DNA of 64,000 nucleotides from Senegalimassilia faecalis (GTDB lineage Bacteria > Actinomycetota > Coriobacteriia > Coriobacteriales > Eggerthellaceae). The notes beneath the pieces were generated by a model, which searched no databases, was not told the origin of the DNA, and worked only from the letters and a program-made list of their open reading frames with translations. The translations under genes were made by a program, and so were the position numbers. Shown here one piece after another: positions 11,259-54,630 of the stretch (within the stretch, counting starts at the first letter, position 1; each line of letters starts with the position of its first letter). The DNA lies in NCBI RefSeq assembly GCF_004135645.1, contig NZ_SDPW01000001.1, positions 186,001-250,000 of the forward strand, read 5' to 3'.

Positions 11259-14200
11259 CTACGACAGCCTGCCGCGCTCCACCGTGTAGGTTACGTCGCA
11301 GATGGCGGCGGTTGAGGCTCGGTGGCTTACCAGTACCACGGTGCGGCCCTCGCGGCTTTCGGACAGGGCGCGCAGCACGGCAGCTTCGTTGAGGCTGTCA
11401 AGGTTGCTGGTCGGCTCGTCAAGCAGCACGAACGGCGCATCGTGCAAGAACATGCGCGCCAGGCCGATGCGCTGACGCTCGCCTCCCGACAGCGTGTCGC
11501 CCAGCTCGCCCACGGGCGTGTCCAGCCCCTGCGGCAAGCGCTCGATCAGCGAAGTCAACGCCGCCTTGCGACAAGCCCCTTTAAGCTGCTCGGCCGTGGC
11601 ATCTGGACGCGCCAGCAGGATGTTTTCGCCCACGGTGCCTGCAAACAGGTGCGTCTCCTGCGTCATGTAGCCCTCAAGCGACCGCAGGTTGTCGGTGTTC
11701 ACGCGGCGGATATCGCACCCCGAAACGTCGATGACGCCGCGCGTGGTATCCCAAAAGCGCATGAACAGCTTGCACAGCGTAGACTTGCCCGAACCGCTCT
11801 TGCCCGCCAAGTGCACGATAGACCCGAGCTCAATGTCCAGGTTCACGTCCTTGAGCACGGGCACCTCGCCATACGAGAAGTCGACGCGCTTGGCAGCCGC
11901 GCCCGTGAACGCAACCAGGTCCTGACCCTCGGAAACTTCCTTCGTTTGCGGCTGCTCGTCAAGCAGGTCAAGCACGCGCGCACCGCTGGCAAGCGTCTGC
12001 TGCAGCGTGGAACCCAGGTTCGCCACGGCAATAACCGGGCCGAACGACGACATAAGCGCCGCAATTGTCACGAAAGCCTGGCCAGCGTCAACAACGCCGC
12101 TGCTGCACAGCGCGCCCGCCAGCATCACCATGGCCACGTCAAGCGCCAACACCAAGCCGTTCGTGGCCGCCATGGCCCGCGCCGCGCGGCTTTTCAGACG
12201 CCGTTCAACGCCTGAAAACGCCGCCATGCGCTCGTCAAGTTCCGCGGAGCGCTCGGACGTGCGCCCAAACTGCAGCGTTTCGCGCAAACCGCGCAGGCTG
12301 TCAAGCACGAAGGCGTTCATGGAACCCAGCGCATCGCGCAGCGCGCGCCCGTCGCGACCCGCCGCTTTCGAAGCAGCCCACGGAGCCGCGATGCCCACCA
12401 GCGCATACGCGACGAATGCCGCCAGTCCCAGCTGCCACGCCATAGAGCCGATGAACGCCACCATAATGGCCGACACGATGATCGCGATAAGCGCCGGAGA
12501 AAGCGTATGTGCGTAGAACACTTCCAGCAGCTCAACATCGGACGTGACCAGCGACACCAAATCGCCCTTCGAACGCCCTTCAAGCTTCGCAGGGGCCAGC
12601 GTACGCAGCTTACCGAACACATGGTCGCGCACCAGCGCCAGAATCTTGAACGCCAGATAGTGGTTGCACATCTGCTCGCCGTAATGCAGCGGGCCGCGCA
12701 CCACGCCACATACCGCGATAAGAGCGATGGCAACCCCCAGCTCCCACGTTTCCGTGAAGCCGGCGATGCTCACCATGGCCTGCGCGCCGATAACCGTCAG
12801 GAAAATGGCTGCCAAGAACCCGACCACGCCAAGCGCCACCGCCACCACCATCACGGGCACCAGCGGGCGCACCAGCTTCACCAGGCGCATCATGATCGAG
12901 AAGTTCGAGCGATGCCGCACGGGCGCCGCTTCAGGCACAGTCGCCACAGGCTCGTCGTTCGAAGGCGCCGCATATGCTGCAGCGCCGGAAACCGCAGCAC
13001 TGCGCTGCTCGGCCTGCGCCGCGAAGCGTTCAAGCTCGGCCTGCTGGTTCCACAGCTTCGTGTACGCACCGTCTTCGCGCACACGCAGCTGCTCGTGGGT
13101 GCCGTGCTCGGCAACGCGCCCGCCGGAAAGCACGTAGATGCAGTCGGCGGCCGCAACGGCGGCCAAGCGGTGAGAAATCATGATGACCGTGCGCGTTTGC
13201 GCCAGCTCATGGATAACGCCGATGATGGCCTCTTCGCTTTCAGCATCCACGTTCGACGTGGCTTCGTCGAAGATGTAGATGGGCGTATCGTGCAGAAGCG
13301 CGCGGGCCAAGGCCAAACGCTGGCGCTGCCCGCCGGAAAGGTTGTTGCCCTGCTCGCTAACCGGCGCGTCAAGCCCGCCCGAAGCGCGTACGAAACCGTC
13401 GATGCGGCAACGCGAAAGCACCGCCCACAGCTGATCGTCGGTTGCCTGCGGGTCGGCCATCAGTAGATTCGAGCGCACGGTGCCCGAGAACAGGTAGCTG
13501 GAAAACGGCACTACCGTTACCGTTTGCGCCACCGACGCGCGCGAAACCTCGGCAAGCGGAATGCCGCCGAGCTCCACGCTGCCCGTATACCCGGCGTTGC
13601 GGCCGCACAGGATGCCGGCAAGCGTCGACTTGCCCGAACCGCTTTCGCCAACGATGCCCGTGAAGCTGCCCGCCGGCGCATCGAAATCGACGTCCGAAAG
13701 CACCGTGCGCTGCCCGTTGTAGGAATACGACACGCCGCGCACCGACACGCCCGCGTGGGCGGAGTCGACCGAGCGCGTGCCCTGGCGCGGCTCTTCGGCG
13801 TCAAGAATGGCGAACATCTTATCGGCCGCCGCCATGCCGTTCATAGCCGTATGGAAAAACGACCCGAGCGTGCGCATGGGAATGAAGAACTCGGCCGACA
13901 GGAACACGACGGCAAACGCGGCGAAAAACGGGACGTTGCCCGCAGCATACTGCATCAGCGCAGCGATGATGCCCACGGCTGCGCCGCCGTACGCGAAGAT
14001 GTCCATGATGGTAACGGAATTCAGCTGCAGGGTAAGCAACCGCATGGTTGCCTTGCGAAACGTTTCCGCCTCGGCATTCATCTGCTGATGCCGCTGCTCG
14101 TCGGCGCGGTAGATCTTCAGCGTGGTCAGGCCCTGCAGGTTTTCCAGAAACGCGCCGCCCAAATCGGTGTAGGCGCCCCAGTACTTGCCCATCACGCGCT

Positions 14201-14955: not shown

Positions 14956-15762
14956 CTACCGCGACTTGCGGTTCTTCACGCGCAACAGCGCCAAGCCTTT
15001 CAGCGTAAGGTGTTGGTCCGCAAGCTCGATGCGCCGCGACAAGCTGGCCATGGCGTGCGCATCGTCGCCCGTAGCCACCACGCGCGTTTTGTACCCGAGT
15101 TCGGCCCACACGGCATCGATAAGCCCATCGATGCGCGCCACTTCCCCGATGACGATGCCCGCCTGCATGGCGTCGCGCGTGTTCTTGCCGATAACGCTTT
15201 TCGGCGCGCGCAAGTCGATGACAGGCAGCTGAGCCGCGGCCTGCGCCACGGCGCGCGCAGCCAAGCGCAGCCCCGGGGCAATGACGCCACCTTGCACCAC
15301 GCCCTCTTCGTCGATAACTTCCAAATTGGTGGCCGTGCCGAAATCCACCACGATAAGCGGGAACCCGTACAGGTGCTTTGCCGCCACGCAATCCGCCACG
15401 CGATCGGCGCCAAGGTCGGCCGGACTGTTCAAGTGCAGCTTCAAGCCCGATTTCAACCCAGGGCCCACCACCAGCGGCCGCGTGCCGCACAAACGGTGCA
15501 GCGCCTCGATCCAGGCATCCGTCAGGCTGGGCACCACCGACGACACGATGGCGTCGCCCACCTCGGCTCCGTCGCAGCGCGCTTGCAGATACGACGACAC
15601 GCACATAAGCGCCTCATCGGCCGTCAGGCTCTCCGGCGTGGTGACGCTCCACGTTTCCTTGAGCTCCTCGCCTCCCGCCAAGCCAAAATTCGTCACGGAA
15701 TTGCCGATGTCCACCGTAAGCGCCAGCGCCTGCGCGCCACGCCTTGCCGTCCTTGCCGCCAT
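14956..15762 (-). CDS. coaX: Type III pantothenate kinase
   Basis: A 268-residue member of the ASKHA fold that phosphorylates pantothenate, the first step of coenzyme A synthesis. It shows the family elements TVDIGNSVTNFGL near the start, ADLGADRVADCVAA in the middle, and DFGTATNLEVID. CoaX enzymes need a monovalent cation and, unlike CoaA, are not inhibited by CoA. The ATG overlaps the brnQ stop by one base (TAATG), so translation is probably coupled. The first 12 residues are an Arg/Ala-rich stretch ahead of the core, so a slightly later start cannot be excluded. Confidence 0.93.
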   Translation of the reverse strand: MAARTARRGAQALALTVDIGNSVTNFGLAGGEELKETWSVTTPESLTADEALMCVSSYLQARCDGAEVGDAIVSSVVPSLTDAWIEALHRLCGTRPLVVGPGLKSGLKLHLNSPADLGADRVADCVAAKHLYGFPLIVVDFGTATNLEVIDEEGVVQGGVIAPGLRLAARAVAQAAAQLPVIDLRAPKSVIGKNTRDAMQAGIVIGEVARIDGLIDAVWAELGYKTRVVATGDDAHAMASLSRRIELADQHLTLKGLALLRVKNRKSR

Positions 15763-51468: not shown

Positions 51469-53181
51469 TTACATGCGCTCGGGCGCGGACACGCCGATGA
51501 GGCTGAGCGTCAGTGCCAGCACGGTGCGGGCGGCGTCGGCCAGGGCCAAACGCGCATTCTGCACGGCAGGCTCTTCGCCGATGATATGGCAGTTCGTATA
51601 GAACTGGTGGAACAGACCGGCCAGCTCCTGCGCGTAGTGCGTCAGGCGGAACGGGGCGCGGTCGCGCGCGGCCAGGGCCACCAATTCGCCAAAGTCGTCC
51701 ATCTTGCGCATGAGCGCAATCTCAGACTCGTGCGTAAGCGGGGAAAGGTCCACGTCTGCCGGAATGACTTTCGCGGCCAGCTCGTCGGCGGACAGGTCCT
51801 CGGCGCCTTCGCCGGCGGCCTTGCGCAGCACCGAGCAGATGCGCGCATGAGCATACTGCACGTAGTACACCGGGTTGGAGTTGTCCTTCTTCTTCGCAAC
51901 CTCGATATCGAAGTCGATGGGCTGGTCGGAAGAACGAGACAGCATGAGGAAGCGCGTTGCGTCAACGCCCACCTCGTCGATGAGCTCGGCGAACGTGACC
52001 ATCTCGCCCGTACGCTTCGACATACGCACGGCCTCGCCGTCGCGGAACAGGTTCACCAACTGGCCAAGCACCACCTCAAGCGCGCCCGGGTAGCCCCATG
52101 CGGCAAGCATGGCCTCGCAGCGCTTGATGTAGCCGTGGTGATCGGCGCCCCACAGGTCGATGAGGTGCTCGAAGCCGCGCTGCATCTTGTTGTAGTGATA
52201 CGCTACATCGGACATGAAGTACGTGTACTCGCCGTTTTCCTTCAGCAGCACGCGGTCCTTGTCGTCGCCGAAATCCGTGGAGCGGAACCACGTAGCGCCG
52301 TCCTTCTCGTACAGGTAGCCCTTCTCATTCATGACAGCCAGCGAACGGGTGACGGCAGATTCGCCGGACTCGTCGGGCACGTACAGGCTGCGCTCGCTGA
52401 ACCACGTGTCGAACGTGGTACCGAAGTTCGTCAGCGTGTTGCGCGCCAGGTCAAGCATCTCTTTATACGCGATCTCGCGGAAAGCGGCCATGCGCTCTTC
52501 GTCGCTGACGCTCTCCCACTTGTTGCCGTCGCGGTCGATGATGTTCTGGGCGATATCCTTCACATAGCCGCCGCCATAGCACTTCTCAGGCATCTCGACG
52601 TCATGACCGAGCAGCTGCATGTAACGAACGGACACGGAGTTGCCGAACACGTCCATCTGCACACCATGGTCATTGATGTAGTATTCCTCGGACACGTCGT
52701 AGCCAGCGTGGCGCATGACGCGCGCCATGGCATCGCCGAGCGTGGCCCAGCGGCCATGGCCCACATGCATGGGGCCCGTGGGGTTGGCGGACACGTATTC
52801 CAGGTTGATCTTGTGGGGAGTGCCCTCGGGAAGCGTGCCCTTGCCGAAATCGCTGCGTTGCTCACGCACGCGAGCGGCAACGGCCTGGAACGCCGAAGGA
52901 GCCAGCTTGATGTTGATGAAGCCCGGGCCGGCGATGTCGGTGGAGGCGATCATAGTGTTCTCGGGCAGGTGGTCGACGATGATCTGGGCGATATCGCGCG
53001 GAGCCTTGTGCGCCAGCTTTGCGCTGCGCATGGCCACGGTAGAGGCCCAGTCGCCGTTGGACAGGTCGCGAGGACGCTCGAGCGCTGGAGCAGGACGCTC
53101 GGCCAGCTCCAGCGAACCGTCTTCGCAAGCCGCGGCGATGGAAGCCGCAAAAAGGTTTTCAAGTTCTTCGCGAATTTGCAT
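51469..53181 (-). CDS. argS: Arginyl-tRNA synthetase
   Basis: A 570-residue class I synthetase. The HIGH-like motif is VGHGRWATLGDA, preceded by EYVSANPTGPMH. The N-terminal tRNA-binding domain (QIREELENLFAASIAAACED) and the C-terminal DALR domain (HFYTNCHIIGEEP-like helices, ending LSLIGVSAPERM) are present. As in many ArgRS there is no full KMSKS; the region reads VRMSKRTGEMV. It lies just after the arc operon on the same strand, but a hairpin-rich gap separates them and a TATGAT box at 53233-53228 may start its own transcript. Confidence 0.97.
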   Translation of the reverse strand: MQIREELENLFAASIAAACEDGSLELAERPAPALERPRDLSNGDWASTVAMRSAKLAHKAPRDIAQIIVDHLPENTMIASTDIAGPGFINIKLAPSAFQAVAARVREQRSDFGKGTLPEGTPHKINLEYVSANPTGPMHVGHGRWATLGDAMARVMRHAGYDVSEEYYINDHGVQMDVFGNSVSVRYMQLLGHDVEMPEKCYGGGYVKDIAQNIIDRDGNKWESVSDEERMAAFREIAYKEMLDLARNTLTNFGTTFDTWFSERSLYVPDESGESAVTRSLAVMNEKGYLYEKDGATWFRSTDFGDDKDRVLLKENGEYTYFMSDVAYHYNKMQRGFEHLIDLWGADHHGYIKRCEAMLAAWGYPGALEVVLGQLVNLFRDGEAVRMSKRTGEMVTFAELIDEVGVDATRFLMLSRSSDQPIDFDIEVAKKKDNSNPVYYVQYAHARICSVLRKAAGEGAEDLSADELAAKVIPADVDLSPLTHESEIALMRKMDDFGELVALAARDRAPFRLTHYAQELAGLFHQFYTNCHIIGEEPAVQNARLALADAARTVLALTLSLIGVSAPERM

Positions 53182-53296
53182 AGTGCTAAATCTTCCTTAA
53201 GCTTGCTCTGAATACATATAGTTTGGCATCATACCATGTTTTTCCGGATTGGCCCCGCCCGCACCCCCTCAAGGCAACAGGGTCAACAAAACCGCA

Positions 53297-53511
53297 AAGC
53301 TCCCCAGCTGATAGCTGGGGAGCTTGCAGTGTCCGCGCGAGAGAAACGCGTGGACAAGGGCTTAGGAGGTGCGGCAGGGCATGCGCACGCACTGCCGCGA
53401 ATAATCAGGGGTCCCGCGGCCGGTAAGGGCCGCGGGAGATTCGCATCTGCGAGAGGGGTCTGTCGCAGCGCGTATGCGCACAAAGGCGATGGTTAGGGGG
53501 GTCGCCTTTTG
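53297..53511 (+). ncRNA. Candidate structured RNA with six hairpins
   Basis: Between argS and arcC, no ORF is credible but six stem-loops follow one another. H1 53297-53325 (AAGCTCCCCAGCT/AGCTGGGGAGCTT). H2 near 53330-53356 (TGTCC.CGCG/CGCG.GGACA). H3 53371-53398 (GCGGCAG/CTGCCGC). H4 53412-53437 (TCCCGCGGCC/GGCCGCGGGA). H5 53441-53452 (TCGC/GCGA). H6 53471-53509 (GCGCACAAAGGCGA with TCGCCTTTTGCGC, terminator-like). Unpaired parts on the plus strand are purine-rich, which favours a plus-strand RNA. I cannot assign it to a named family. A leader of argS on the minus strand is the alternative. Confidence 0.5.
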
Positions 53512-53542
53512 CGCAGGAGGCATCACAAGCGCAAGTAATCGC

Positions 53543-54496
53543 TTACGCGGTGATGACGGTGCCCGTCTTGCCCTCCAGGCCGGCGGCGGCGCACTCGAGC
53601 GAGGTGATGAGGGCCTTGCCCTGCGGGTAGGCCTCGACGTACTCGATGCAGGCCTCGACCTTGGGGAGCATCGAGCCGGGGGCGAACTGGCCCTCCTCGA
53701 TGTACTTGCGGGCCTCGGCGACCGTCATGGAGGAGAGCTCCTGCTGGTCGGGCTTGTTGAAGTTGATGCACACCTTCTCGACGGCGGTCAGGATCACCAG
53801 CATGTCGGCGCCGAAGTCGGCGGCCAGCTTGGCCGAGCTGCGGTCCTTGTCGATGACGGCGGGCACGCCCTCGTAGCCGTCCTCGGTCTCGAAGACCGGC
53901 ACCCCGCCGCCGCCGGTGGACACCACGATGTAGCCGGCGTCCATGAGGTCCTTGACGGCGTCGAACTCGACGATGCGCTGAGGCTTCGGGGAGGCCACCA
54001 CCTGGCGCCAGCCGCGGCCGGCGTCCTCCTTGAACGTCCAGCCGGTCTCGGCGGCCTTGGCCTTTGCCTCCTCCTCGGTCATGAACGCGCCGACGGGCTT
54101 GGTGGGGTTCTGGAACGCCGGGTCGTCCGGGGAGACGACGGTCTGGGTGATGACGTTGGCCGTGGAGCGCATGATGCCGCGGGCCTTGAGGTCGTTCAGG
54201 ATGGCCTGCGACAGCTGGTAGCCGATGTAGCCCTGGGACATGGCGCCGGCCTCGGGGAACGGCATCTCGGGCGTCTTGCCGTCGTTGGCGGCGGCGTAGG
54301 CGAACGCGTTGTTGATCATGCCGACCTGCGGGCCGTTGCCGTGGGACACCACGACGTTGACGCCGTCGCCGACCATGTCGACGATGTGCTTGGCGGTGTT
54401 CTTCACCAGCTCGAGCTGCTCCTGCGGCGTGTTGCCCAGGGCGTTGCCGCCCAGGGCGATGACTACGGAAGGACCTTCACCTTTTGCGTAGGGCAT
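53543..54496 (-). CDS. arcC: Carbamate kinase
   Basis: A 317-residue kinase that makes ATP, CO2 and ammonia from carbamoyl phosphate, the last step of the arginine deiminase pathway. It starts SVVIALGGNALGNTPQEQLE and contains VVSHGNGPQVGMINNAF, AMSQGYIGYQLSQAI, VSTGGGGVPVFE and DKDRSSAKLAADFGAD. AAAAGGAGG lies 7 bases before the ATG. Two hairpins separate it from arcB, so its level may be set separately. Confidence 0.97.
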   Translation of the reverse strand: MPYAKGEGPSVVIALGGNALGNTPQEQLELVKNTAKHIVDMVGDGVNVVVSHGNGPQVGMINNAFAYAAANDGKTPEMPFPEAGAMSQGYIGYQLSQAILNDLKARGIMRSTANVITQTVVSPDDPAFQNPTKPVGAFMTEEEAKAKAAETGWTFKEDAGRGWRQVVASPKPQRIVEFDAVKDLMDAGYIVVSTGGGGVPVFETEDGYEGVPAVIDKDRSSAKLAADFGADMLVILTAVEKVCINFNKPDQQELSSMTVAEARKYIEEGQFAPGSMLPKVEACIEYVEAYPQGKALITSLECAAAGLEGKTGTVITA

Positions 54497-54517
54497 GATG
54501 TGCCTCCTTTTGGGAAT

Positions 54518-54565
54518 AAAAAAGCCAACCCATGAAAATGGGACGTGAAAACGTCATAGGTTGGC
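54518..54565 (-). terminator. Terminator inside the arc operon, before arcC
   Basis: GCCAACCTATG pairs with CATGGGTTGGC (one mismatch), enclosing a smaller GACG/CGTC hairpin. A run of six T follows on the minus strand, just before the arcC ribosome site. It should cut read-through from arcB into arcC or act as an attenuator. Confidence 0.8.
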
Positions 54566-54585
54566 AAGGATTACGTGATGCAATT

Positions 54586-54616
54586 CGTTCCGCCGCCCAG
54601 CGTGGGCGGCGGAACG
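54586..54616 (-). terminator. Hairpin after arcB
   Basis: A perfect 14-base stem (CGTTCCGCCGCCCA with TGGGCGGCGGAACG) and a 3-base loop lie 15 bases past the arcB stop. There is no U-run, so it may be an mRNA 3' stabiliser rather than a terminator. Confidence 0.6.
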
Positions 54617-54630
54617 TGGGATGAAGAGAC

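Follow-up and report, generated by a model that had tools for sequence, protein, structure and literature searches.

The hairpin-rich stretch at positions 53297–53511 of the window (the whole 64,000-nucleotide stretch of Senegalimassilia faecalis DNA that was analysed) probably represents the 3′ UTR of arcC together with the intrinsic terminator of the arc (arginine deiminase) operon, transcribed from the minus strand and carrying a genus-specific hairpin/anti-Shine-Dalgarno (anti-SD) module, as read from the sequence. What had originally been predicted as an undescribed six-hairpin RNA on the plus strand is thus most likely an operon end on the opposite strand. The structured stretch forms the 3′ flank of a 317-aa ORF (53543–54496, minus), which we take to be arcC, encoding carbamate kinase, a name given from sequence recognition by an earlier reader. 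On that strand arcC is followed downstream by argS (arginyl-tRNA synthetase, 51469–53181, minus, 570-aa ORF). Read along the minus strand, the gap contains the arcC stop codon, the hairpins H6, H5, H4 and H3, a CCUCCU motif, H2, H1 and a conserved extended −10 element, followed by argS. The latter element (TGGTATGAT, 53228–53233, minus), located downstream of the H1 terminator, is probably part of the predicted argS promoter, and the corresponding hexamers in three Senegalimassilia species read TATGAT, TATGAT and TAAGAT. The synteny with argS is kept in two congeners (loci L003/L041 and L004/L040), and relatives of arcC are found in 79 of 138 genomes of the family (Eggerthellaceae). The window genome also contains a second arcC (L050, G000:C1:900581-901531) with 98% DNA identity to that at 53543–54496. 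The flanks of the two copies are unrelated and the identity stops at the stop codon, which suggests gene conversion or recent copying.

All six stem-loops claimed for 53297–53511 were present in the computed folds. H6 (53476–53514, minus), a 13-bp hairpin with the loop CCCCCCUAACCA, is located 28 nt past the arcC stop and is followed by H5 (53442–53472, minus), H4 (53412–53437, minus), a 10-bp GC hairpin with the loop CUUACC, and H3 (53371–53398, minus), the hairpin of a conserved core. H2 (53330–53356, minus) is situated between this core and H1, a candidate intrinsic terminator (53278–53325, minus, with the hairpin at 53297–53325) consisting of a 13-bp stem, AAGCUCCCCAGCU...AGCUGGGGAGCUU, and a UUGCGGUUUUG tail. 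The minimum free energy of 53297–53511 was −115.2 kcal/mol on the plus strand (z −5.96) and −108.2 kcal/mol on the minus strand (z −9.97), and none of 200 dinucleotide shuffles folded as well on either strand. In a sliding scan of the 64 kb (640 sampled 215-nt frames, of which two were positioned on the target) the highest rank went to its minus strand, with a dE of −40.3 over shuffles as compared to −29.3 for the best position elsewhere, and a dE of −27.1 was obtained for the target on the plus strand. The claim that pairing is denser here than in other gaps is thereby upheld, with the largest folding excess in the 64 kb found on the minus strand. A single spot in a background of eight 20-kb stretches (160 kb) of the same genome, a gap with several palindromes, was more extreme than the target (dE −49), and the folding density is consequently rare rather than unique. 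Moreover, the 215 nt following arcC folded better than shuffles at all 14 family loci examined (z −1.5 to −8.8), and no common sequence was found among these 14 flanks. Thus, strong hairpins 3′ of arcC are the rule, and the window lies near the extreme.

The gap between arcB and arcC is strongly structured too, both in the window and in JC110, and the plain reading is that of a heavily structured operon, its end especially so. In the window this gap (54497–54630, minus) contains a 14-bp hairpin followed by a terminator-like structure with a U6 tail (GCCAACC...GGTTGGC TTTTTT), which stand immediately 5′ of the arcC Shine-Dalgarno (SD) sequence. Both are present in JC110 (L040) with compensatory changes, and they could constitute an attenuator within the arc operon. 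A separate observation concerns the arcC 3′ flanks of other genera (L054, L055, L057, L058 and L059), where a conserved stretch, CGGTTAYGCTTCC ... TTCTCGTTCGCC, without an Rfam match separates arcC from a gene, probably for a transporter, whose product starts MTE...

The statement in the original prediction that 53297–53511 matches no known RNA family held against Rfam, where no family (raiA, riboswitches, T-box and 6C included) reached its gathering cut-off; the best sub-threshold match, obtained in a permissive search with chance-level scores, was Scr3920 at 16.2 bits vs a cut-off of 88. The Rfam search of the relatives returned tRNAs only, and nothing relevant was found in the literature on Senegalimassilia and arginine deiminase.

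The assignment to the minus strand is based on the gene order, the H1 tail, how large the folding excess is, and the core; it does not depend on each stem pairing better there. Both flanking genes, arcC and argS, are on the minus strand, the folding excess is greater there (z −10 vs −6), and the U-tailed H1 is oriented for minus-strand termination. The H1 stem on this strand is GC-rich with a stability of −24.1 kcal/mol over 13 bp. Its position and tail are kept in three species, the U-rich sequence being UUUGCGGUUUUG in the window as well as in UBA5906 and UUUUGGUUUUC in JC110. As this U-rich sequence follows H1 in all three, H1 has the appearance of an arc-operon terminator on the minus strand. 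The tail is broken in the window, (UU)UGCGGUUUUG, and falls short of the 5-of-8 T rule, with UUUUGGUUUUC at the same place in JC110; in a mechanical terminator scan neither end of the stretch passed on either strand. The stretch had been described as ending in a terminator-like hairpin, and H6 indeed has a T4 tail on the plus strand, but it is not recovered by the mechanical scan and the terminator-like end is instead H1 on the minus strand. The arrangement resembles intrinsic (Rho-independent) terminators and structured operon 3′ UTRs, where a GC-rich hairpin with a U tail closes the operon before the next promoter. Unlike in usual intrinsic terminators, however, four to five additional stems are found upstream, one of them conserved in sequence beside arcC paralogues.

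Pairing by itself leaves the strand unsettled, as H1, H2, H4 and H6 are slightly better folded on the plus strand (G-U on plus, A-C on minus; for H1 this was seen in two congeners and for H2 in the window), whereas the core favours the minus strand. In all five copies of the core the pairing is better on minus, the plus strand having an A-C mismatch, and an invariant G-U pair, plus a further G-U in UBA5906, fits minus throughout. A plus-strand RNA antisense to the arc message, perhaps with a mini-ORF MRTHCR[E/G] and AGGAGG, is consistent with the slightly better pairing of H1, H2 and H6 and with the T4 tail of the latter, as well as with an ATG, a stop codon and an SD-like AGGAGG/GAAGG kept in 5/5 copies. 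In the window the reading frame is ATG CGC ACG CAC TGC CGC GAA TAA (MRTHCRE, 53381–53404, plus), which overlaps the core and is preceded by AGGAGG. Nevertheless, we consider such an RNA very unlikely: no promoter-like site for it was found at the locus, a plus-strand gene follows downstream at 0/5 loci, codon 7 of the mini-ORF switches from E to G without pattern, H4–H6 are missing in the congeners, and the core prefers the other strand. The mini-ORF was set aside because no plus-strand gene follows and the hairpin accounts for the conserved letters, and it is probably a by-product of the latter. An in-frame peptide on the minus strand, MPCRTS, was likewise rejected, its stop codon being missing in 2/5 copies.

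The conserved core (53361–53405, minus) comprises YUAYYC, the H3 hairpin GCGGCAG-U-GCGU(GCGC)AUGC-N-CUGCCGC and then unpaired ACCUCCUAAG. It alone among the six hairpins is conserved in sequence; H1 and H2 keep their positions in the argS loci (H2 in three), and nothing corresponding in sequence to H4–H6, including their C-rich loops, is present in the two congeners, which argues against a discrete six-hairpin transcript. Five copies of the core occur in three genomes (the window genome, UBA5906 and JC110), at the argS locus in all three and beside two more arcC copies of JC110, one luxR-linked and one rRNA-methyltransferase-linked. Each copy is on the arcC strand, 60–235 nt 3′ of the arcC stop, and the second arcC of the window genome is without one. 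No further copies were found at ≤1 mismatch in 138 Eggerthellaceae genomes; the exact pattern was recovered among 84,980 species genomes only in S. anaerobia JC110 and Eggerthellaceae bacterium UBA5906, with no occurrence in IMG/VR. A covariance model of the core (R1) recovered the same five places. Marginal matches of the model in two genomes (G298 and G022, E 0.0016 and 0.008) were dismissed, as the sequence inspected there contained no core, and a 3-mismatch scan of 297 genomes of the order gave chance-level noise, with a reversed control matching equally often in most genomes.

On the minus strand all 11 core pairs form in 5/5 copies, and one column varies between G-C, A-U and G-U. The covariation looked for on homologues was thus present as one compensated pair out of 11, but weak, as 203 of 500 shuffles equalled it for these five sequences, and it neither proves nor disproves an RNA. 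The sequences between arcC and the core are unalignable among the five copies. A terminator accompanied by nothing but neutral palindromes, with a core that was duplicated together with arcC and is still undecayed, would agree with this weak covariation and with the homogenised arcC copies of the window genome. It appears extremely improbable, since the flanks have diverged past recognition, yet 35/45 core positions are invariant in the five copies. As a sequence the core is new, although elements of its kind are known, and selection presumably maintains it beside arcC in Senegalimassilia.

Such conservation could also reflect a DNA element, either a near-perfect 28-bp palindrome to which a dimeric regulator binds or a mobile REP-type palindrome of low copy number. 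In the rRNA-methyltransferase-linked copy of JC110 the arms GCGGCAGTGC/GCACTGCCGC form perfect inverted repeats, at three loci of one genome the core persists where its flanks have not, and a palindrome would work on either strand. REP palindromes are imperfect, GC-rich and intergenic with a GGAG-like tetranucleotide beside them, and the core shares these features. Unlike REPs, which are scattered in many copies, it is present once in its own genome and one to three times per congener, always 3′ of arcC; an own-genome search thereby ruled out a dispersed repeat. In addition, the invariant G-U pair and the conserved unpaired flanks (YUAYY, CCUCCU) exceed what a palindrome accounts for, making a DNA element a rather unlikely explanation. 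Two other repeats were encountered: a palindrome, (T)GGGACAAAGGGACAGTCCCTTTGTCCCA, that recurs in almost identical form at two far-apart places in the genome (L094, ~13985–14015, and L097, ~13837–13865), classified as a dispersed repeat, and a long GC-rich inverted repeat (AAGCGGAAGGGGCCG) at 15001–15215 and 9001–9215 of L100, 6 kb apart.

The unpaired bases of the minus strand are C-/U-rich and G-poor (40% C, 34% U and 10% G). The 6C RNA and other C-rich-loop sRNAs of Gram-positive bacteria similarly have hairpins with C-rich unpaired segments, as found here on minus. A trans-acting minus-strand sRNA of ~120–130 nt could be derived from the arcC 3′ UTR, consisting of the core, H2 and the terminator, with the C-rich unpaired segments (ACCUCCUAAG, CCCCCC and CCCCUCU) serving as seeds against SD sequences in the manner of other C-rich-loop sRNAs. 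The base composition would suit this function, and the order hairpin, unpaired CCUCC, hairpin and U-tailed terminator is kept in three argS loci. Still, it is an unlikely alternative: no promoter or processing motif is conserved upstream of the core, the same arrangement of H2 and terminator is missing in 2/5 core copies, and the C-rich loops of H4–H6 are not conserved in the congeners. The stretch differs from the 6C RNA and its like in these unconserved loops and in matching no such Rfam family.

Returning to the arcC 3′ UTR, its module contains an anti-SD motif, CACCUCCU (53364–53371, minus), identical in sequence to the anti-SD tail of 16S rRNA. The motif is identical in the three argS loci, 60–235 nt past arcC, so that the gene has an anti-SD in its 3′ UTR. 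In the argS copies of UBA5906 and JC110 CCUCCU is for the most part unpaired, and in the window fold it is partly accessible; of the two paralogue copies of JC110, one has a degraded anti-SD (CACCUUC) and the other an interrupted one. The computed duplex energies of CCUCCU are −14.9 kcal/mol with the SD of arcC and −14.6 kcal/mol with that of arcA; any CCUCCU pairs with any strong SD, and the values show no specificity. The closest precedent is the icaR mRNA of Staphylococcus aureus, where a C-rich anti-SD motif in the 3′ UTR, UCCCCUG, pairs with the SD of its own message (PMC3868564). As in icaR, a long bacterial 3′ UTR here carries a C-rich anti-SD motif able to pair with its own SD; unlike in icaR, there is no sequence relation, and the motif lies between two stable hairpins and has a predicted function. 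By analogy, the arc mRNA may be what the hairpin/anti-SD module acts on. Two points favour base-pairing to the arc SDs, which would damp translation or lay the message open to RNase III: the good match of CCUCCU to the SDs of arcA and arcC, and the proven icaR precedent (PMC3868564). We advance this use of the motif only as a tentative possibility.

In the resulting model, RNA polymerase would run from arcC through H6–H2 and stop at H1, and this stop would insulate the argS promoter. The array of stems probably stalls 3′-to-5′ exonucleases and would in that way stabilize the arcC message. The CCUCCU of the 45-nt module may in turn pair with the SDs of the arc message (arcA and arcC) in an icaR-like manner, and this pairing would either damp translation or open the message to RNase III. 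A more far-reaching version, which we regard as doubtful, is a genus-specific regulatory RNA module that has been copied along with carbamate kinase genes and either acts inside arcC 3′ UTRs or is released from them by cleavage, its anti-SD loop coupling the output of arginine catabolism to translation.

The arginine deiminase pathway is an energy source for gut Eggerthellaceae. If the anti-SD module works in the proposed manner, the arc operon would provide a Coriobacteriia example of a 3′ UTR that controls its own operon; otherwise the result has value as a negative, in that an intergenic fold of such density is an ordinary, if extravagant, operon end on the other strand.
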